The notes under the pieces were generated by a model. It was not told where the DNA came from. It saw only the letters and a program-made list of their open reading frames with translations, and made no database searches. Positions 23,556 to 32,863 of a DNA stretch of 64,000 nucleotides are shown here, in pieces. The position numbers and the translations under genes are program-made. The stretch covers positions 38,402 to 102,401 of the forward strand of contig NZ_FAOZ01000031.1 in assembly GCF_001536285.1 (NCBI RefSeq). Reading direction: 5' to 3'. Position 1 is the first letter of the stretch, and every line of letters begins with the position of its first letter. Origin of the DNA: Parafrankia irregularis (GTDB lineage Bacteria > Actinomycetota > Actinomycetes > Frankiales > Frankiaceae).

Positions 23556-23718
23556 GGTCTTCCGTCTCCACTCGGTCAAACTGGCTCTGTTCGTGACGGC
23601 TGGGTGCAGTTGGTCGTCGGTTCTGGATGCGTCCGAGACTTCAACCATGATCGTTTGTTCGTGAGATGTGGATGCGGTCCCGGGAGGCGTGGCGGCGGTG
23701 ACCGCGGTCAATGTCCTT

Positions 23719-23789
23719 TGACAATGAACCTGGTCCGCGTGCCATCGAATGTGGTCCGGTCGTGGTTCGTGTCATCGAAGCTGACCCGA
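23719..23789 (+). repeat. Left-end repeats of the Tn7-like element
   Basis: Three direct ~20-bp repeats fit TGtCAtCGAAnnTGnnCCG: 23719-23737 (TGACAATGAACCTGGTCCG), 23740-23759 (TGCCATCGAATGTGGTCCGG) and 23770-23789 (TGTCATCGAAGCTGACCCGA). They lie 30 bp before the tnsA-like start. Multiple short transposase-binding repeats are the normal end structure of Tn7- and IS21-like elements. The exact terminus and any target duplication are not clear. Confidence 0.65.
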
Positions 23790-23819
23790 TCTGACTCCTG
23801 TTGATCTACGGTCCGACGG

Positions 23820-24566
23820 GTGGCGGTCCCGGCAGTCGAGTCTCTGGACAGCGGGTTCACGGTGGAGTTCGTGGAAGCGGCTGGATCACTGCGCAGGGAA
23901 AGGCTGGCGGCGTGTTGGAGCATGCCGTTCGAGAGGGCCAGTCCGGTCCGATCGTTCGGCTGGCCGAGGGGAGGTCGCAGCTTCCCGGGCTGGTGGTGGT
24001 CAGCCACTCTTGGCGATCATGTCGGGTTCGAGTCGTGGCTGGAGCGGGATCATGTGATGCTGCTCGACTTCGACCCGGACGTGGTGGCGCTGTCCGCGCA
24101 GCCGTTCTGGCTGCGCTGGCACGACGGCGTTCGTCCGCGTCGGCATGCCCCGGACTTCTTCGTCCGGCGCGCGGATGGCGGGGGTGTGGTCGTCGATGTG
24201 CGGGCGGACGACCGGATCGAGCCGGCGGACGCCGAGGCGTTCGCGGCGACGGCGGTGGCCTGCGGCCAGGTCGGCTGGCTGTTTCGGCGGGTTGGGGTGC
24301 CAGACGGGGTACTGGTGGCGAACGTGCGCTGGCTGGCGCGCTACCGGCATCCCCGCTGCGTTGGCGACGGGACGCTGGCCGACCGACTGGTGGAGGTGTT
24401 CGCTGAGCCGAGGTCGTTGTTCGGCGGCGCTGCCGAGGTTGGCGACCGGATCGCGGTGCTGCCGGTGCTCTACCACCTGCTGTGGTGCCGGCGGCTGGTC
24501 GCGGACCTGACCGGCGGTCTGCTCGGACCGTCCACGGCGGTCGGTCCGGCGGGATGGTCGCGGTGA
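23820..24566 (+). CDS. TnsA-like heteromeric transposase endonuclease
   Basis: 248 residues from GTG 23820. A restriction-endonuclease-like fold is indicated by GFESWLERDHVMLLDFDPDV (Glu, about residue 72), RRHAPDFFVRR (Asp, about 110) and VVVDVRADDRI (the position of the third active-site element, about 127). LSAQPFWLRW matches the TnsA pattern in which the query endonuclease recognises transposon ends. In Tn7-type systems TnsA cuts the 5' strands so that transposition is cut-and-paste. It overlaps the TnsB-like gene by 13 bp, indicating translational coupling. Confidence 0.75.
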   Translation: MAVPAVESLDSGFTVEFVEAAGSLRRERLAACWSMPFERASPVRSFGWPRGGRSFPGWWWSATLGDHVGFESWLERDHVMLLDFDPDVVALSAQPFWLRWHDGVRPRRHAPDFFVRRADGGGVVVDVRADDRIEPADAEAFAATAVACGQVGWLFRRVGVPDGVLVANVRWLARYRHPRCVGDGTLADRLVEVFAEPRSLFGGAAEVGDRIAVLPVLYHLLWCRRLVADLTGGLLGPSTAVGPAGWSR

Positions 24567-26428
24567 CCGGAGTTGGGCCGGTTCCGCCGCACGGCATGTT
24601 GGACGGGCTGCCCGCCGAGGCGGTCGAGCGGGCGTTGTGGTGGGAACGGCATGTCGTCGAGGTGCTGGACGGCCGGCCACCGGACAGCCCGCCGGAGGCT
24701 GCGCCGCGGCCGGAGTTCGACCCCGGGCGGTGGTCGTTGACCCGCCGGGAACAGGCGAAGGCCGCCGAGCTCGCCGCGGCGGGTCACCGGGTGAGCGCGG
24801 CCACGGTCAAACGCCGCCGGCAGCGCTACCAGGCACGGGGCGTCGTCGGCCTGGTCGACCACCGAATCGACCGCAAGACCGCAGCCTTCGGTCGGGTCGA
24901 CGAGCGGGTTGCCGCGGCGATGACCACGGCGATCGGCGAGACGACGGATGCGTCGTCTCGCACGGCGGGGTTCGTGCTCTGGCGCACCGAGCAGCTGCTC
25001 ATCGGGGCTGACCCGCCGGTGGTGCTGCCGTCGCGGCGGACCCTCTACCGGCTGTTCGGCCGGCTCGCGCACGGCCAGCACGTGACAGGGTCTGCGCGGG
25101 CACGCCGGTCGCTGGCCGCGCGTCCGGACGGGCCGTTCTCTGCGGTCACGGTGACGGCGCCGGGTGAACTGATGCAGGTCGACTCGACCCCGTTCGACGT
25201 GCTGGTCCGTCTTGATGATGGGGTCACCGGCCGAGTCGAGCTGACCGGCATGGTCGATGTCGCGACCCGAACGGTGACAGCCGCGGTGCTGAGGCCGACG
25301 ACGAAGGCGGCCGACGTCGCGGTACTGCTGGCGCGTTCGGTGACTCCGGAGCCGATGCGCCCGGGGCGGGCGCAGGCGCTGGCGATGTCCCGGTCGGTAC
25401 TGCCGCACCGGCGCCTGCTCGCCATCGACGAGCGGTTCGAGTATGCGGCGGCCCGGCCGGTGATCGTCCCGGACACGATCGTCTGCGATCACGGGAAGGT
25501 GTTCATGTCACGGGCGTTCCGTGCGTCCTGCCGTTTCCTCGGGATCAGCCTGCAACCGGCGCACGAGGCCACCCCGACGGACAAGGGGCACATCGAGCGG
25601 ACGTTGGGCTCGGTGGCCTCGCTGTTCGCGCAGTTCGTCGCCGGCTACGCCGGCTCCACCGCCGACCGGCGCGGCCGGGGCCTGGTCGACGGGCCGCTGT
25701 GGTCGCTGCCCGAGCTGCAGGATCTCCTCGACGAGTGGATCGTCGCGGGCTGGCAGAACCGGCCGCACGATGGTCTGCGTGACCCGCTGTCTCCCGGGCG
25801 GATGTTCACACCGAACGAGAAGTACTCCGCACTGCTCGAGGCTTCCGGTCACGTCCCGGTCACCCTGACCGGGGACGACTACATCGAGCTGCTGCCCGCC
25901 CGCTGGCACGCCGTCAACGCCTACGGCATCCGGCTCAACCACCGCACCTACGACGCTGAGGCCCTGGGCCCGCTGCGTCGCCAGCCGTCCGGCGTCAAAG
26001 AGAAGAAAGATCTCTGGGAAGTTCACCACGATCCCTATGACGTTTCCCGGATCTGGGTTCGTGACCCGGCCGGAGGTTGGATCACCGCGTTCTGGACCCA
26101 GCTGCACCGGACCCCGGTCCCGTTCGGTGAACTGGCCTGGGACCACGCCCGCGCCGGCCTGCCCACCAGCACGGAGCGGGAGATCGCCGACGCGGTGGCC
26201 AGTCTGCTCGACCGCGCCCACCGCGGCCCGGCCACCCGCCCTGCCGCGCCAGCGCGGGAACGCACCGTCGTCGCCCGCACCCGCGCCACGAGTCCGCCCG
26301 CGCCGCCGGGGAACAGCCCCGTCGAAGCGACGGCGACCAGCGAGGCCGACACCCAGGTGACCGCGACAGCGAAGGTGATCCCGCTGCCGCTGTTCGACCC
26401 GTTCGCCGAGGCGGGCCGGCGCGGGTGA
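24554..26428 (+). CDS. TnsB/TniA-like DDE transposase (Mu-type)
   Basis: 624 residues from ATG 24554. An N-terminal helix-turn-helix region (LAAAGHRVSAATVKRRRQRYQ) precedes an rve integrase core with the catalytic triad Asp210 (LMQVDSTPF), Asp312 (IVCDHGKVF) and Glu348 (KGHIERTLGS), a DDE spacing of 35. The Mu-transposase C-terminal beta-barrel (IRLNHRTYDAEALGPLR) and a Pro/Ala-rich tail that may contact the ATPase follow. It makes the 3' strand cuts and joins the ends to target DNA. The stop overlaps the next start (GTGA). Confidence 0.88.
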   Translation: MVAVTGVGPVPPHGMLDGLPAEAVERALWWERHVVEVLDGRPPDSPPEAAPRPEFDPGRWSLTRREQAKAAELAAAGHRVSAATVKRRRQRYQARGVVGLVDHRIDRKTAAFGRVDERVAAAMTTAIGETTDASSRTAGFVLWRTEQLLIGADPPVVLPSRRTLYRLFGRLAHGQHVTGSARARRSLAARPDGPFSAVTVTAPGELMQVDSTPFDVLVRLDDGVTGRVELTGMVDVATRTVTAAVLRPTTKAADVAVLLARSVTPEPMRPGRAQALAMSRSVLPHRRLLAIDERFEYAAARPVIVPDTIVCDHGKVFMSRAFRASCRFLGISLQPAHEATPTDKGHIERTLGSVASLFAQFVAGYAGSTADRRGRGLVDGPLWSLPELQDLLDEWIVAGWQNRPHDGLRDPLSPGRMFTPNEKYSALLEASGHVPVTLTGDDYIELLPARWHAVNAYGIRLNHRTYDAEALGPLRRQPSGVKEKKDLWEVHHDPYDVSRIWVRDPAGGWITAFWTQLHRTPVPFGELAWDHARAGLPTSTEREIADAVASLLDRAHRGPATRPAAPARERTVVARTRATSPPAPPGNSPVEATATSEADTQVTATAKVIPLPLFDPFAEAGRRG

Positions 26429-27456
26429 ACGCGCTCCCAGCAGAAGGCGCTTGGCGCGGCGCGCTCGCCAGCGACGACGACCACCGGCAACTGACCACCC
26501 TGCCCGGCTGGCGGGCGTTCACCGCCGCGGCCATCACCGCCCCCGATCTACTCCCGCCCGCCCGGTGGACGGCGCTCGGCGAGACCGAACGAGCCTGCTA
26601 CGACGAGCAGCGTCTCGACTACCACACCCGCCTGGCCGTGGTCGGCACCTCGACACTGCGCCAGGTCGTCCACGCCGGCAGGCGCCTCACCCTGCTCAAC
26701 CGGCATGCCGTCTCCGCCCGGCGCGGCCTGATCCTGTCCGGGGCTGCCGGCACCGGCAAGACCACCGCGATCACCCAGTTCGGCAAGACCCACGAGGCGA
26801 TCGACCGCCGCCGCCATCCCGACGTCAGCGACCGGATCCCGGTCATCTACGTGACCGTCCCGCCCGCCGCGACCGCGCGCATGCTCGCGGTCGAGTTCGC
26901 CCGGTTCCTCGGCCTGCCGCTGACCACCCGGGCGAACATCACCGATGTCATCGAAGCGGTCTGCGGCGTCGCCGTCGACACCCGCGTCAGCCTCGTCTGC
27001 GTGGACGAGATCCACAATTTGACCCTGGCCACCCGCACCGGTGCCGAGGTCTCCGACACCCTGAAGTACTTCTCCGAACGCATCCCCGCCACCTTCGTCT
27101 ACGCCGGCATCGACGTCGAACGCAACGGCCTGTTCGCCGGCACCCGCGGCCGGCAGATCGCCGGTCGGTTCAGCCTGATCGACACCACCCCGTTCCCCTA
27201 CGCCGACGAATGGAAAGCCCTCGTCGCCACCCTCGAGCAGGCACTGCGGCTGCATCACCACGTCGCCGGAACCCTGCCCCAGCTCGACCGCCACCTGCAC
27301 CAGCGCACCGGCGGGATGATCGGCAGCCTGTCCCACCTGATCCGCGGCGCCGCGGTCGAGGCAGTCCTCGACGGCACCGAAAAGATCACCCGAAGGACTC
27401 TCGACCAGGTCGACCTCGACCACGCCGCCCAGACCGCGAACCCCACCAGCCCATGA
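26425..27456 (+). CDS. TnsC/TniB-like AAA+ ATPase
   Basis: 343 residues from GTG 26425. The Walker A motif is GAAGTGKTT (about residues 106-114) and Walker B is LVCVDEIHNL (about 191-200), followed by sensor-type sequence TFVYAGIDVERNGLF and GRFSLIDTTPF. Such ATPases form filaments on target DNA and connect the target selector to the transposase. It starts inside the tnsB stop and ends inside the start of the TniQ-like gene (ATGA). Confidence 0.85.
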   Translation: MNALPAEGAWRGALASDDDHRQLTTLPGWRAFTAAAITAPDLLPPARWTALGETERACYDEQRLDYHTRLAVVGTSTLRQVVHAGRRLTLLNRHAVSARRGLILSGAAGTGKTTAITQFGKTHEAIDRRRHPDVSDRIPVIYVTVPPAATARMLAVEFARFLGLPLTTRANITDVIEAVCGVAVDTRVSLVCVDEIHNLTLATRTGAEVSDTLKYFSERIPATFVYAGIDVERNGLFAGTRGRQIAGRFSLIDTTPFPYADEWKALVATLEQALRLHHHVAGTLPQLDRHLHQRTGGMIGSLSHLIRGAAVEAVLDGTEKITRRTLDQVDLDHAAQTANPTSP

Positions 27457-28028
27457 CCGCTGACACCCGCCTGCCCCGGCCTCTCCCGATCCGCCCCCGA
27501 CCCATCGCAGGCGAAAGCCCCGCCGCCTACGTCCGGCGCCTCGCCAACGCCAACCACCTCCGACCCGGCTACCTGCGCCGTCTCCTCGACGGCGGACCCG
27601 GCCACGACACGACCATCCGCATGGACTGGCTCGCCGCCCTCGCGGACAGATCGCTACCCGCCCTGCAACGAGCCCTCGCCAACCCGCACCGCCGCCAGGC
27701 CCGCAAACCCGAGCTGTTCGCCGCCATCCGCCACGACGCCCAGAACCGCCGCCTGTCGATGCGCGCACTCGCGGAACGCCACGGTGTCCACCGCCGCACC
27801 GTCCGCCAAGCCCTCGACTCCCCGACGCCCCCACCCCGCAAGAAGCTCCCGCCCCGGGGATCACGGCTCGACTCGCTCAAGCCGGCGATCGACGCCATGC
27901 TCCGCGAGGACAACCCCGACCCACCACGCAAGATCAAACAGATCTACGACCAACTACGTGACCAGAACCCCGACGCCGAGATCACCTACTCCGTGGTCCG
28001 GCTCTACGTCTGGGACCATCTCGAGTAG
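27453..28028 (+). CDS. TniQ-like domain fused to an IS21 IstA-type helix-turn-helix
   Basis: 191 residues from ATG 27453. Residues about 8-75 (LPIRPRPIAGESPAAYVRRL, NHLRPGYLRRLL) match the start of TniQ/TnsD target-selector proteins. Residues about 80-191 (ELFAAIRHDAQNRRLSMRAL, HGVHRRTVRQALDSPTPPPRKK, LDSLKPAIDAMLRED, ITYSVVRLYVWDHLE) match the N-terminal DNA-binding part of IS21 IstA transposases and stop before the DDE core. The zinc-finger part of TniQ is absent. The frame is unbroken across the join. As the fourth coupled gene it probably selects the target site. Whether the fusion is ancestral to this family or local is unknown. Confidence 0.7.
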   Translation: MTADTRLPRPLPIRPRPIAGESPAAYVRRLANANHLRPGYLRRLLDGGPGHDTTIRMDWLAALADRSLPALQRALANPHRRQARKPELFAAIRHDAQNRRLSMRALAERHGVHRRTVRQALDSPTPPPRKKLPPRGSRLDSLKPAIDAMLREDNPDPPRKIKQIYDQLRDQNPDAEITYSVVRLYVWDHLE

Positions 28029-28034
28029 GCGGAA

Positions 28035-28161
28035 CCGGACCACCTTCGCTGACACAAACGGCCGGCGACGCAATCCAAAATCGCCGAAGGCTGCACTGGC
28101 CCGTGTCATCGAATCTGATCCGACCAGGTCACAGACCTGCAGCGGATCACCTTCGCTGACA
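28035..28161. repeat. Right-side repeats, Tn7-like or IS21 end
   Basis: Three more copies of the ~20-bp motif: 28035-28054 (minus; TGTCAGCGAAGGTGGTCCGG), 28104-28123 (plus; TGTCATCGAATCTGATCCGA) and 28142-28161 (minus; TGTCAGCGAAGGTGATCCGC). The outermost ends in ...TGACA, which suits a TGT/ACA terminus. The interval also borders the istB gene of an IS21 remnant, whose end would carry similar repeats, so ownership is uncertain. Confidence 0.6.
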
Positions 28162-28169
28162 ACGGACAG

Positions 28170-28958
28170 TCAAGCTTGGTGCTCGGTGCGGTTCCGGGTG
28201 TGGGCGAGGCGGTAGGAGTCGGTGCCGGTCTCGAGGATGGTGCCGCCGAAGGTGAGGCGGTCGACGATCGCGGCGCAGAGGCGGGGGTCTGTGAAGGTCT
28301 TGGTCCAGCCGCCGAAGCTTTCGTTAGACGCGATCGCGACGCTGGCTTTCTCCTCACGTTCGGTGAGGACCTGGAAGAGGAGTTCGGCGCCGCGGCGGTC
28401 AAGTTCCATGTAGCCGAGTTCATCGATGCAGAGCAGGTCAACGCGTCCGTAGCGGGCGATGGTCTTGTTGAGGCTTTTCTCGTCAGCGGCCTCGACCAGC
28501 TCGTTGACGAGTTTCGTGGCGAGGGTGTAACGGACGCGGTAGCCCGCGATCGCGGCTTCGGTTCCCAGCGCGATGAGGAGATGGGACTTGCCGGTGCCGG
28601 AGTCACCGATGAGGCATAGTGGTTGGCCTTTGTTCACCCAGTCGCAGCGGGCAAGTGTGTGAACTGCGGCGGGGTCGATGTTCGGGTTGGCATCGAAGTC
28701 GAAGGCGCGAAGGGATTTGTCGCGGGGAAACGCGGCGGCTTTGATGCGGTGTTCGGAACGGCGACGGTTCCGGTCGTCGCATTCGGCCATAAGGAGTTCG
28801 GCGAGAAACCCACGGTAGGTCATCTGCTCGCGGCTGGCGGCCTCGGCGATGTCGGTGAACTGGGCGCGGACGGTCGGGAGGCGCAGCAGCCGGCAGGCCT
28901 GGTCGACGGCGGTCTCGGCGGCTTGCTCGGTCAGTCCGCGGTGGCGTTGGGTGGTCAC
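28170..28958 (-). CDS. istB: IS21-family helper ATPase IstB
   Basis: 262 residues from ATG 28958. Walker A is GDSGTGKSHLL and Walker B is DLLCIDELGYME. The C-terminal motif RLTFGGTILETGTDSYRLAHT is typical of IstB. It assembles on DNA and stimulates the IstA transposase. The gene is intact and overlaps the end of istA (ATGA). Only 8 bp separate its stop from the outer repeat at 28161. Confidence 0.9.
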   Translation of the reverse strand: MTTQRHRGLTEQAAETAVDQACRLLRLPTVRAQFTDIAEAASREQMTYRGFLAELLMAECDDRNRRRSEHRIKAAAFPRDKSLRAFDFDANPNIDPAAVHTLARCDWVNKGQPLCLIGDSGTGKSHLLIALGTEAAIAGYRVRYTLATKLVNELVEAADEKSLNKTIARYGRVDLLCIDELGYMELDRRGAELLFQVLTEREEKASVAIASNESFGGWTKTFTDPRLCAAIVDRLTFGGTILETGTDSYRLAHTRNRTEHQA

Positions 28959-29893
28959 GGCCGGGTTCCTTCCTGGGCGGTGCGGCGGCTGGGTAGGAGC
29001 TGGTCGTAGACGGCCACCGAGGGCAGGGGCCGGGTGTCGGGCGGCAGCTGGATCAGACGTCGCTCGGTCAGCGAACTGACGGCGGAACCGGGCTGTGGCG
29101 GCGTGGATGGGGGCGGTTCGTCGGTGTCTGCTGCCCTGCGGGCCTCAAGCGCGACGGCGTCAGCGGTCAGCGCTCCGGCCCGTAGCGCGGCCGCCAAGCC
29201 CGCGACGACGTGCTCGTGAGCGAGGTGGCGGTGCAGTAGCAGCACCTCGATCAGCGCTCGTGTCCCGACCGGCTCGCCGTGGGCCTTGGTCGCTGCTGCC
29301 CACCAAGCGTCGTGGACAGGGGTGAACCTGCCCGCCGAACGAGCCTGCTCCAACGCGGTCGCCCCGGGCAGCGCGCCCGGCTTGCGGACCAGCGCTTCGA
29401 GGTAGTGATCCAGGTCCAGGCGGGTCGCGCCCTGGGCCATCACCCGTTCATGGCGGGCGACCTCGACCTGCCCGTCGTAGACGACGAGGTGGGAGGCGTG
29501 GAGCAGGACTCGCACCCGCCTGCCGATCAGCCGGACCGGCACCGAGTAGCGGGCGTTGCGCACCGGGACGCGGCTGTAGCGGTCGACCCTCGGGTTCGAC
29601 CAGCGGCCGGTCTCGAACGCCTCGTCCGGAAGCCGGGCCAGCGTCGGCTGCTCGACAGCGAACATCTCCCCGACCGTGCGAGCGCGAGCCCCGATCCGGC
29701 GGGCATCATCGTCCCGGTCCCACCGCTCGATCGAGGCGTTGAGCTCCTCCCACGAATCGATCTCCGGAACCGGGACGAGGTGGTTGCGGCGGAACCTGCC
29801 GATATCGCCCTCGACGCCGCCCTTCTCGTGCGCACCACCCAGCCCAGGCTGGCAGTAGAACGGCTCGATGCCGTAGTGCGACCGGAACGCGGG
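28955..29893 (-). pseudogene. istA: IS21-family transposase IstA, C-terminal fragment
   Basis: About 310 codons survive, starting at PAFRSHYGIEPFYCQPGLGG. They include the catalytic Glu region (AHEKGGVEGDIGRFRRNHLVPVP), the Mu-type C-terminal domain (SRVPVRNARYSVPVRLIGRRV) and the tail QLLPSRRTAQEGTRP. The N-terminal HTH and the first two catalytic Asp residues are missing because an IS256 element cuts in at about 29896. The IS21 is therefore dead although IstB is intact. Confidence 0.8.
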
Positions 29894-29896
29894 TCA

Positions 29897-31316
29897 CGTC
29901 CAGAGACGTGGTGTACGGAGAGTGACTCCGTGTGATCCTGGTTGAAGGTTATGCGGTCAGGGCTTCGTGTGTCACGGTGATCTCGGGTGTGTCTTCGGTG
30001 TTGTGGGACGGGTCGGTTCTGGCGAGGATTTCCAGACCGATGTAACGGTGGGTTTCAATCCACTCGTCGTGCTGTTCGGCGAGGACGGCGCCGATGAGAC
30101 GGATGATGGCGTCGCGGCTGGGGAAGATGCCGACGACGTCGGTGCGTCGCCGGATCTCCCTGTTCAGCCGCTCCTGCGGGTTCGAGGACCAGATCTGCCG
30201 CCAGATCTCCCGCGGATAGGTAGTGAACGCAAGCAGGTCGGCTTTCGCATCGGAGAGATGGTCGGCGGCTTTGGGAAGTTTCTCGGTGAGCGCGTCGACG
30301 ACGCGGTCGAACTGCACGCTGACCTCGTTCGCGTCCGCCTGATCGAAGATCGTTCTCACCAGGGTCGCGACCCACGGCTGCGACGATTTTGGTGTCGCTA
30401 CCAGCAAGTCCCGCAGATAATGTGTGCGACACCTCTGCCAGGATGCGCCGGGCAGCGTGGAACCGATCGCGTTGACGAGGCCGCGGTGGGCGTCCGAGGT
30501 GACGAGCCGCACTCCGGACAGGCCGCGGGCGACCAGGCCGCGGAAGAACGCCAGCCAGCCGGCTCCGTCCTCGCTGCTCACGACGTCCAGGCCGAGGATC
30601 TCCCGGTGACCGTCGCCGTTGACCCCGACGGCGAGCAGGCAGTGGACGTTGATCACCCTGCCGTCCTCGCGGACCTTCATCGTGAGCGCGTCGGCCTGGA
30701 CGAACCGGTACGGGCCGGCATCCAGTGGTCGGCTGCGGAACGCCTCGACCTGGGCGTCTAGATGTTTCGCGAGCTTGGACACCTGGGATTTCGAGATGTT
30801 CGCGACCCCGAGCTGCTCGACGAGCTTGTCGACCCTTCTCGTCGATACCCCGAGCAGATAGGACGTGGCCACCACCGAGATCAAGGCCTGTTCGGCGCGG
30901 CGCCGCCGTGTCAGCAGCCATTCCGGGAAGTAGGAGCCCTGCCGCAGCTTCGGCACCGCCAGCTCGATCGTCCCGGCGCGGGTGTCCCATTCTCGCATCC
31001 GGTAGCCATTCCGACGATTGACTCGATCCGGAGATACCTCCCCGTATTCGGCGCCGCAGATCCCGTCCGTGTCGGCGCCCATCAACGCCTCCGCGAACGC
31101 CTTCACCATCGAGCCCAGCAGATCTGGACTCGCTGCCATCAGTTCCTTGCCGAAGCCCTCGGCATCGGTCACAGTCGGGCGCACGGCCATCGCGTATCTC
31201 CTCATCGAGTTCTTGGCGGTTCTCGAAAAGGATCATGCGGTGGTCGCTCTACGTCACGGACCCTCGCTCCGGCGAGTCGCTAGACGATCACGATCCGTAC
31301 ACCACGTCAGTGGACG
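29897..31316 (-). mobile_element. IS256-family element, complete
   Basis: About 1,420 bp with terminal inverted repeats. The left end at 29897-29919 and the right end (reverse complement of 31294-31316) agree at 21 of 23 positions, including GACGTGGTGTACGGA, the usual IS256 end. No matching 8-bp target duplication is seen. It is flanked by two unrelated truncated elements (IS21 left, group II intron right), which suggests a deletion or recombination after insertion. Confidence 0.82.
29949..31190 (-). CDS. IS256-family transposase
   Basis: 413 residues from ATG 31190, placed 8 bp after GAGGAG (an upstream ATG at 31205 is also in frame). Conserved IS256 features are present: NRRNGYRMREWDTRAGTIEL, VPKLRQGSYFPEWLL, the DDE residues around VQADALTMKVRE, LVTSDAHRGLVNAIG and SSNPQERLNREIRRRTDVVGIFPS. 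Full length and undamaged, so the element is probably active. Confidence 0.92.
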   Translation of the reverse strand: MAVRPTVTDAEGFGKELMAASPDLLGSMVKAFAEALMGADTDGICGAEYGEVSPDRVNRRNGYRMREWDTRAGTIELAVPKLRQGSYFPEWLLTRRRRAEQALISVVATSYLLGVSTRRVDKLVEQLGVANISKSQVSKLAKHLDAQVEAFRSRPLDAGPYRFVQADALTMKVREDGRVINVHCLLAVGVNGDGHREILGLDVVSSEDGAGWLAFFRGLVARGLSGVRLVTSDAHRGLVNAIGSTLPGASWQRCRTHYLRDLLVATPKSSQPWVATLVRTIFDQADANEVSVQFDRVVDALTEKLPKAADHLSDAKADLLAFTTYPREIWRQIWSSNPQERLNREIRRRTDVVGIFPSRDAIIRLIGAVLAEQHDEWIETHRYIGLEILARTDPSHNTEDTPEITVTHEALTA

Positions 31317-31585
31317 CCACTCCGGCAAATGAAGATGGCGCGAGCTTGGCTTGGGCTCTGCAACGGAACAGGAGAACTCCTCGGCCCGACACGGGTCCCG
31401 CGGATTGGAGCGGGAACCCACCGGGAGATCGGCAAGCGGCTAATCCGTGAGTCGCGGAGTACCGGGTGCGGGCCAGGAGGGCGGAACGTCCCGTAGTAGT
31501 GATGAAGCGCCTGTAATGGGCGCGGAGCGAAGGGGGCGTGCCGTCGAGTGTCGTCCAGCGATCAACCAGCCATGGGAGGAATTGC

Positions 31586-32863
31586 ATGGGCGAGACAAGG
31601 CCAGCAGGAAAGTCGTTTGACATTCCGAAGAAGCTGATATGGGAAGCGTACCTGAAGGTTAGTGGCAACAGAGGTGCGGCGGGGATTGACGGGCAGTCTC
31701 TGGCGGAGTTCGAACAGGATCTTCGGAACAACCTGTTCAAGCTTTGGAACCGAATGTCGTCGGGGAGCTACTTCCCGGAGGCGGTGAGAGCCGTCTCCAT
31801 CCCGAAGTCAGACGGTGGCACCCGGATCCTCGGAGTGCCCACCGTCGCCGATCGGATAGCGCAGACGGCCGTGGCCATGATCCTGGAGCCGGAAGCGGAC
31901 CCAGTGTTCCATCCTGACTCCTACGGTTATCGGCCAAGGAAGTCCGCGCTGGACGCGGTGGAGGTGTGCAAGCAGCGGTGTTGGCGACGCCCCTGGATAG
32001 TCGATCTTGACATCCAGGGGTTCTTCGACAACGTTCCGCACGCACAGATCGTCGCCGCGGTGGAGACACACACGAACCTGCCCTGGGTTGTGCTGTACGT
32101 GAAACGGTGGCTTGTCGCGCCGGTTCATCACCCTGACGGCAGCCGTGTCACTCCCGTGAAGGGAACTCCACAGGGATCGGCGATTTCGCCACTGTTGTCG
32201 AATCTCTTCCTGCACTACGCGGTGGACGCATGGCTTGCCAGGAACTTCCCGGTGGTGCGGTTCGAGAGGTACTGCGACGACATTATCCTGCACTGCTACA
32301 GTCAGCGGCAGGCGAAGTACATTCGCGATGTCGTTGCGAAGCGGCTGCTGGAGTTCGGGTTGCGCTGCAACCCGGACAAGACCCGGATCGTCTACTGTAA
32401 GCAGGACGGACGCGACGAGGAACACCCGGTAACAAGCTTCACGTTCCTGGGATTCGATTTTCGCCGTGCGCCTATCCGACGACGTGACGGCGTACTGATG
32501 TGCGGGTTTGTCCCGCTGGTCGGCAAGTCGGCACTGAAGTCGATGGCGCGGGTCATCCGGCAGTGGAAGCTGGGGCGGTGGACCAGTGCAAGCCTTCGGG
32601 ACCTCGCCACGATGGTCAATCCCATCGTGGCAGGCTGGATCGGCTACTACGGGCGCTTCTACAAGTCCAGGCTGATGCGCTTCCTGAAACAGCAGATCAA
32701 CCCTTTCCTTGTGAAGTGGGCGATGCGGAAATATAAGCGACTGCGTCGAGCGAAACGACGGGCTCGTCGGAAACTGGCCGAGATAGCGTCAGCGTTCCCG
32801 ACGATGTTCGCTCACTGGAAGCACGGCGCGAGTCCTGCTGGTTCGACGGTGGGAGCCCGGTGA
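31586..32863 (+). CDS. ltrA: Group II intron reverse transcriptase/maturase, YCDD variant
   Basis: 425 residues from ATG 31586, preceded by GGGAGGAATTGC. RT blocks: GAAGIDGQSLAEFEQDL, GTRILGVPTVADRIAQTAVAMILEPEADPVFH, WIVDLDIQGFFDNV and GTPQGSAISPLLSNLFLHY. The catalytic motif is ERYCDDII, with Cys instead of the usual Ala in YADD. The X domain is IVAGWIGYYGRFYKSRLMRF with a basic C-terminus. The stop codon lies inside domain V (32861-32863). It is only distantly related to the maturase at 10813-12276. Confidence 0.88.
   Translation: MGETRPAGKSFDIPKKLIWEAYLKVSGNRGAAGIDGQSLAEFEQDLRNNLFKLWNRMSSGSYFPEAVRAVSIPKSDGGTRILGVPTVADRIAQTAVAMILEPEADPVFHPDSYGYRPRKSALDAVEVCKQRCWRRPWIVDLDIQGFFDNVPHAQIVAAVETHTNLPWVVLYVKRWLVAPVHHPDGSRVTPVKGTPQGSAISPLLSNLFLHYAVDAWLARNFPVVRFERYCDDIILHCYSQRQAKYIRDVVAKRLLEFGLRCNPDKTRIVYCKQDGRDEEHPVTSFTFLGFDFRRAPIRRRDGVLMCGFVPLVGKSALKSMARVIRQWKLGRWTSASLRDLATMVNPIVAGWIGYYGRFYKSRLMRFLKQQINPFLVKWAMRKYKRLRRAKRRARRKLAEIASAFPTMFAHWKHGASPAGSTVGAR

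Follow-up and report, generated by a model that had tools for sequence, protein, structure and literature searches.

Does a cluster of four overlapping transposition genes in an actinobacterial genome amount to a complete mobile element, and if so, what decides where that element inserts? These questions are raised by a 64,000-nucleotide stretch of the Parafrankia irregularis genome (assembly GCF_001536285.1, contig NZ_FAOZ01000031.1, positions 38,402 to 102,401), referred to here as the window and numbered from its first letter, in which a first-pass annotation had proposed a minimal Tn7-like element encoding TnsA, TnsB, TnsC and a TniQ-like protein. We consider it likely that the locus is a complete and probably functional Tn7-like transposon without cargo, belonging to the actinobacterial TnsA-like family, and that its target is chosen via the C-terminal part of TniQ.

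A complete four-gene transposon

The element occupies positions 23712 to 28168 (plus strand; 4,457 bp), with the tnsA end at the left, and is bounded by TGTCC...GGACA inverted repeats accompanied by additional end repeats. The left terminal repeat (L1, TGTCCTTTGACAATGAACCTGGTCCG; 23712 to 23737, plus strand), a presumed TnsB site, is identical at 19 of 26 positions to the right terminal repeat with which it pairs (TGTCCGTTGTCAGCGAAGGTGATCCG; 28143 to 28168, minus strand). This pairing scored 39 against 35 for the best shuffle, and none of 1,000 shuffled flanks scored as high. Repeat comparison placed two further pairs just inside the termini: L2 (GTGCCATCGAATGTGGTCCGGT; 23739 to 23760, plus strand), 86% complementary to the right internal repeat R3 (28034 to 28055, minus strand), and L3 (TGGTTCGTGTCATCGAAGCTGACCCGA; 23763 to 23789, plus strand), 85% identical to a right internal repeat in the same orientation (28097 to 28123, plus strand). 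Repeats inside both ends are the usual appearance of TnsB site arrays, and we assume from them that TnsB binds here. The termini are flanked on the left (23707 to 23711) and on the right (28169 to 28173) by GTCAA, a 5-bp target duplication. The TGT..ACA termini, the several TnsB-type repeats and the 5-bp duplication, all of which recur in relatives, identify the ends as Tn7-like. The limits first proposed (23719 to 28161) are hereby moved to the exact ends at 23712 and 28168, and the repeats, said to lie outside both ends, in fact lie at the termini and just within them.

Four genes, tnsA, tnsB, tnsC and tniQ, fill the element with about 4.2 kb of coding sequence. Their starts and stops overlap, as had been annotated, by 13, 4 and 4 bases, and only 108 bp 5' of tnsA and about 140 bp 3' of tniQ are noncoding, in keeping with the initial view that nothing else lies inside. 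The tnsA-like gene (23820 to 24566, plus strand; GTG start) encodes a 248-residue endonuclease that scores 304.5 bits (cut-off, 110; E 3e-91) on NF033179 (TnsA_like_Actin, "TnsA-like heteromeric transposase endonuclease subunit"), which assigns it to that lineage; the match to the Pfam TnsA N-domain (E 2e-4) stays below its cut-off. Its residues E71, D112 and D126-V-R128 are conserved in the family, and the third catalytic motif reads D-x-R rather than D/E-x-K in 79 of 82 relatives. TnsB (24554 to 26428, plus strand; 624 residues) is a DDE transposase with a Mu-transpos_C domain, as judged from family matches and alignment (PF09299; solved Tn6677 TnsB, E 2e-7). D210, D312 and E348 had been correctly named as its catalytic residues, and they are conserved in 83-85 of 85-86 aligned sequences. 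TnsC (26425 to 27456, plus strand; 343 residues) is a TniB-type AAA+ ATPase by its similarity to PF05621 (E 2e-16) and to solved TnsC structures (Tn6677 TnsC, E 5e-11). The last gene, tniQ (27453 to 28028, plus strand), encodes only 191 residues. The description as a stripped-down Tn7-like element of insertion sequence (IS) size is therefore borne out, with four genes in 4,457 bp.

An empty site shows the element to be mobile. In a Frankia genome the same end of IS21 is present with no transposon in it; 231 of 246 bases (94%) are identical across the junction of the joined flanks, and only one copy of the duplicated bases is present. The comparison of empty and filled sites that the first-pass annotation had proposed supports the limits given above for the element. 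The single copy in the genome would suit an immobile chromosomal operon or a degenerate remnant; however, the paired ends, the target duplication, the open frames and the intact catalytic residues are at odds with this account, the flanks vary among relatives, and the empty site already refutes it. We give it practically no weight. We conclude from these sequence features that the element is intact and mobile and probably functional.

An actinobacterial family of compact transposons

A search for a recurring unit, likewise suggested at the outset, recovered the same arrangement in many actinobacteria, with similar ends, different flanks and 5-bp duplications. Across actinobacteria, we located 27 members of 4.5 to 10.5 kb whose ends pair and are bounded by 5-bp duplications, in a variety of positions. 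Since about 12 of the 27 have fewer than 170 bases between tniQ and the right end, and hence no cargo there, minimality is a habit of the family; the window element is its shortest member found in this analysis. No further relatives were found in viral contigs. Of the earlier suggestion of a distinct actinobacterial lineage, the part that stands is a widespread actinobacterial family, but one already recognised and named as NF033179. It probably corresponds to the Actinobacteria-dominated clade 2 of Benler 2021 (PMC8649781). For Tn7-like elements in the literature, median lengths of 14-29 kb are given, with cargo in 96% of them (PMC8649781).

The closest relatives are found in Frankia sp. AiPa1 (L043), with the duplication ACCGG, and in Parafrankia EUN1f (L010 with L123), where the element is spread over two contigs with AAAGC on both sides. 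Their TniQ proteins are 74-78% identical to that of the window. The AiPa1 copy holds one additional gene, nucleotidyltransferase-like by eye.

Several relatives are themselves interrupted. Elements of 3.5-6.3 kb with ends CTTTACCGACCG...CGGTCGGTAAAG split conserved motif codons (tnsB codon ~400 or tnsC codon ~194) in L010, L061, L064, L065 and L067, and a similar element with the end TATCTTGAGCCCG... lies at tnsC codon ~229 in L011. These interrupting elements carry apparent tyrosine-recombinase and zinc-finger/TnsF-like genes (Tsy- or RIT-like). Inserted so precisely in tnsB and tnsC motifs, they are possibly site-specific parasites of the TnsA_like_Actin family. At L019, L020, L027 and L134, elements or element genes stand head to head with a sibling of opposite orientation near the tnsA end. 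The P. irregularis genome also contains a second, distant Tn7-like element (G000:C49, C50 and C60; L173-L175) with a TnsB 34% identical and a long TniQ; it lies within a repeat of about 6.7 kb at three contig ends and so is probably multicopy.

A TniQ protein fused to an IstA-type module

The fourth gene had been called TniQ-type, which holds for the first 80 or so residues (TniQ domain, ~11-78; PF06527, 27.4 bits, barely over the cut-off of 27, E 6e-6), while the remainder is a DNA-binding module of the type found in the IS21 transposase IstA. Residues ~85-190 match the IstA N terminus (NF033546, E 4e-11) and share ~48-54% identity with the corresponding region of actinobacterial IstA proteins. 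They resemble IstA of IS5376 (PDB 8b4h/8q4d) in sequence, and the same two structures are the best fold matches; the solved TniQ 7svu gave a weak Foldseek match to the element's TniQ. A model built from 15 relatives (mean predicted local distance difference test score, 83; predicted template modelling score, 0.43) contains TniQ-type helices followed by a first helix-turn-helix (HTH; 85-122), a linker and a second HTH (140-190). Sequence, model and fold search together establish a fusion of a TniQ domain with an IstA-type tandem HTH. In a tree comparing the HTH domains of TniQ with IstA, the group of the window element is placed within the IstA sequences, the deeper forks being poorly supported.

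In IstA, the two HTH domains recognise the terminal repeats of IS21 (PMC10122671). TniQ proteins with exchangeable DNA-binding domains are known in general (PMC10293859; PMC11406308), and the modular target selectors of those reports likewise combine a TniQ domain with such a domain; a tandem HTH of the IstA type does not feature in the parts of them consulted. For IS21 itself they state that no target selector has been reported, and the open literature searched yielded no account of a TniQ with an IstA-type module.

Target sites of relatives

The C-terminal part of TniQ, as read from the sequences of the members, differs in kind among them, being an IstA-type tandem HTH, a set of CxxC zinc ribbons or a long canonical TniQ. 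Seven Streptomyces members, in as many species (L013, L014, L017, L033, L039, L040 and L071), occupy an orthologous site upstream of acnA, with the tnsA end 36-42 bp from the perfect palindrome TATCTCGATGTCGAGATA; six of the seven have an HTH-type TniQ, and the TniQ of L071 was not recovered. Four members beside a padR-type gene lie 31-34 bp past AACGATATATCGG and have a zinc-ribbon TniQ where it is readable, and two with a long TniQ lie 30 bp past ACTGACCRGTCAGTTCAAAAA. Over 22 sites, some of which are orthologous and hence not independent, palindromes were stronger in the left (tnsA-side) than in the right flanks (Wilcoxon p 0.007). For some left ends the position comes from an end profile (position weight matrix) and not from the duplication, and the flanking genes (acnA, padR-type, alkB, IS1380-type, tyrosine recombinase) were named by eye from translations. 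Other members, among them L019, L020, L015 and L065, lie 6-26 bp from the apparent end of a sibling element. In the left flank of L025, a palindrome resembling a LexA box (TATTCGAGCAGGCGTTCGAATA) precedes a probable alkB gene and is 34 bp away from the insertion.

These comparisons support the view that target choice resides in the C-terminal part of TniQ and that, where several members share one site, the tnsA end comes to lie ~30-42 bp from a recognised, palindromic operator-like sequence. The site upstream of acnA is a candidate new attachment site; no attachment site of this description was found in the open literature searched.

Could TniQ be recruited by operator-bound host regulators instead of reading the palindrome itself? 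The targets do resemble operators, lying near acnA, a padR-type gene, a lysR gene and alkB, the last with a LexA-like box, and DNA-bending partners acting in trans are proposed by Faure 2023 (PMC10293859). The TniQ proteins concerned nevertheless have DNA-binding domains of their own, with no need for an extra element gene, which makes such recruitment improbable in our estimation. We likewise see little reason to favour a role of the IstA-type module at the transposon's own ends, where it would aid synapsis while target choice came from elsewhere. In IS21 the module does bind the terminal repeats of its element (PMC10122671), and by eye the end repeats here resemble IS21 ends in form (TGTC..TGACA..GAA). 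However, end binding already falls to TnsB in Tn7-like systems, members with an IstA-type TniQ share a one-sided target motif at fixed spacing, and their ends still resemble the ones found with other types of TniQ.

The insertion into IS21

The window element itself is lodged within a copy of IS21, with the stop codon of istB (28170) on one side and the right end of IS21 (23582) on the other. The host copy consists of istB (28170 to 28958, minus strand; 83% amino acid identity to the IS21 copy in contig C25), with the transposon at its stop codon, and of the C-terminal part of istA (28955 to 29665, minus strand), whose N-terminal part is missing, as judged from the reading frame and from comparison with the C25 copy. 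Beyond the transposon lies the right-hand end of the same IS21 (23582 to 23711, minus strand), with the terminus TGGCTCTGTTCGTGACGG at 23582, where similarity to the empty site stops. A second IS21 terminal repeat (TTTGTTCGTGAGATGTGGATGCGGTC; 23654 to 23679, minus strand), similar to the end repeat at 23582, is a presumed IstA site and a candidate target of the TniQ fusion. It lies 27 bp from the target duplication, near the spacing seen elsewhere in the family. The left flank of the window element contains no significant palindrome.

With an end-reading module of the IstA type in TniQ, the natural supposition is that the fusion read the repeat at 23654-23679. On the boldest reading, the transposon would have taken into its TniQ the part of an IS21 transposase that recognises the ends, and would hunt IS21 termini with it, using the ends of a different transposon as a parasite to land in. 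The single insertion fits at 27 bp, but the two closest relatives do not: one is in a tyrosine recombinase gene (L043) and the other in an IS1380-type transposase gene (L010), and no convincing motif shared by the left flanks of the three was detected by eye. With one insertion in favour and two relatives elsewhere without a common motif, the hunting of IS21 termini remains, therefore, a plausible but tentative and rather doubtful idea. Alternatively, in the Frankia subgroup the same transposon may have relaxed its targeting or may follow mobile or plasmid DNA in general, so that its position in IS21 and the 27-bp spacing would be coincidental in an IS-rich region. To us this is an evenly balanced proposition: the three closely related copies occupy unrelated positions, each within a mobile-element gene, and Tn5469 is reported to lack target specificity (PMC11406308), whereas other members with an HTH-type TniQ are clearly site specific and the window TniQ retains an intact IstA-type DNA-reading module.

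Two broader links to IS21 were considered and rejected. The transposon repeats do not belong to IS21: the ends of the host IS21 copy read TGGCTCTGTTCGTGACGG..., those of a relative TGTCGGTGAG...; moreover, the transposon ends and 5-bp duplications recur in genomes with no istA or istB nearby. This disposes of the initial concern that the repeats might be those of IS21 copies only. Nor do all HTH-type members target IS21 in general, as neither istA nor istB was found near other family members in the genome contigs searched and the HTH-type members of Streptomyces share the site upstream of acnA.

The surroundings contain other mobile DNA. A 1.4-kb element with 29-base inverted repeats and a single, apparently IS256-type transposase gene (29897-31316) appears to interrupt the host IS21 upstream of the istA remnant, and beside this IS cluster is a frame resembling a group II intron reverse transcriptase (31538-32863).

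A model for transposition and its relation to known systems

By homology, TnsB would bind the terminal repeat arrays and, together with TnsA, cut both strands, giving cut-and-paste movement, which we propose because a TnsA-like nuclease is present. TnsC would assemble on target DNA marked by TniQ and trigger insertion with a 5-bp duplication. The C-terminal module of TniQ would read the target sequence, the tnsA end landing ~30-42 bp away; for the single insertion in the window, the sequence read may be the IstA-type repeat 27 bp away.

Some observations weigh against this picture. No transposition was observed, and the P. irregularis genome holds only one full copy. Arginine replaces the expected catalytic lysine of TnsA in nearly all members examined (79 of 82), and double-strand cutting is for this reason an assumption. 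Lastly, the closest two relatives are at unrelated sites with no evident common motif and do not reproduce the IS21 rule.

Members examined of the actinobacterial TnsA-like transposons (NF033179) share gene order, ends and the 5-bp duplication, and the window member differs in being the shortest found here and in its IstA-type TniQ. Tn7 (TnsABC+TnsD) likewise has a heteromeric TnsA/TnsB, TnsC and a selector with a TniQ domain. It makes a 5-bp duplication, and its target site is found at the tnsA-proximal end, some tens of base pairs away. In contrast to Tn7, the window element lacks TnsE and cargo and has a short TniQ with an IstA-type module in place of the TnsD C terminus, and its relatives target intergenic palindromes, not glmS. 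The "res hunters" Tn5053/Tn402 also have a single TniQ and insert into the DNA of another transposon, but the presence of TnsA, the lack of a resolvase gene and a target that is not a res site place the element outside that group. With IS21 (IstA/IstB) it shares the IstA-like tandem HTH and a small, compact build; its TnsB/TniB-type transposase and ATPase, its TnsA and its own ends set it apart. Cyanobacterial Tn5469, from a different host phylum, is by description a cargo-free Tn7-like element with a single TniQ that was already known, and an IstA-type fusion is not reported for it (PMC11406308).

In summary, the locus offers a compact four-gene natural system, and the DNA-reading part of its very short TniQ is similar to a known module of solved structure. 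Because the family has several kinds of reader, and because the targets of some of these are evident directly from genome sequences, the handover of target recognition from TniQ to TnsC is testable by domain swaps. If the reading of IS21 were true, one transposon would have turned the end-binding domain of another into a homing device. The family may also offer small insertion tools for actinobacteria.

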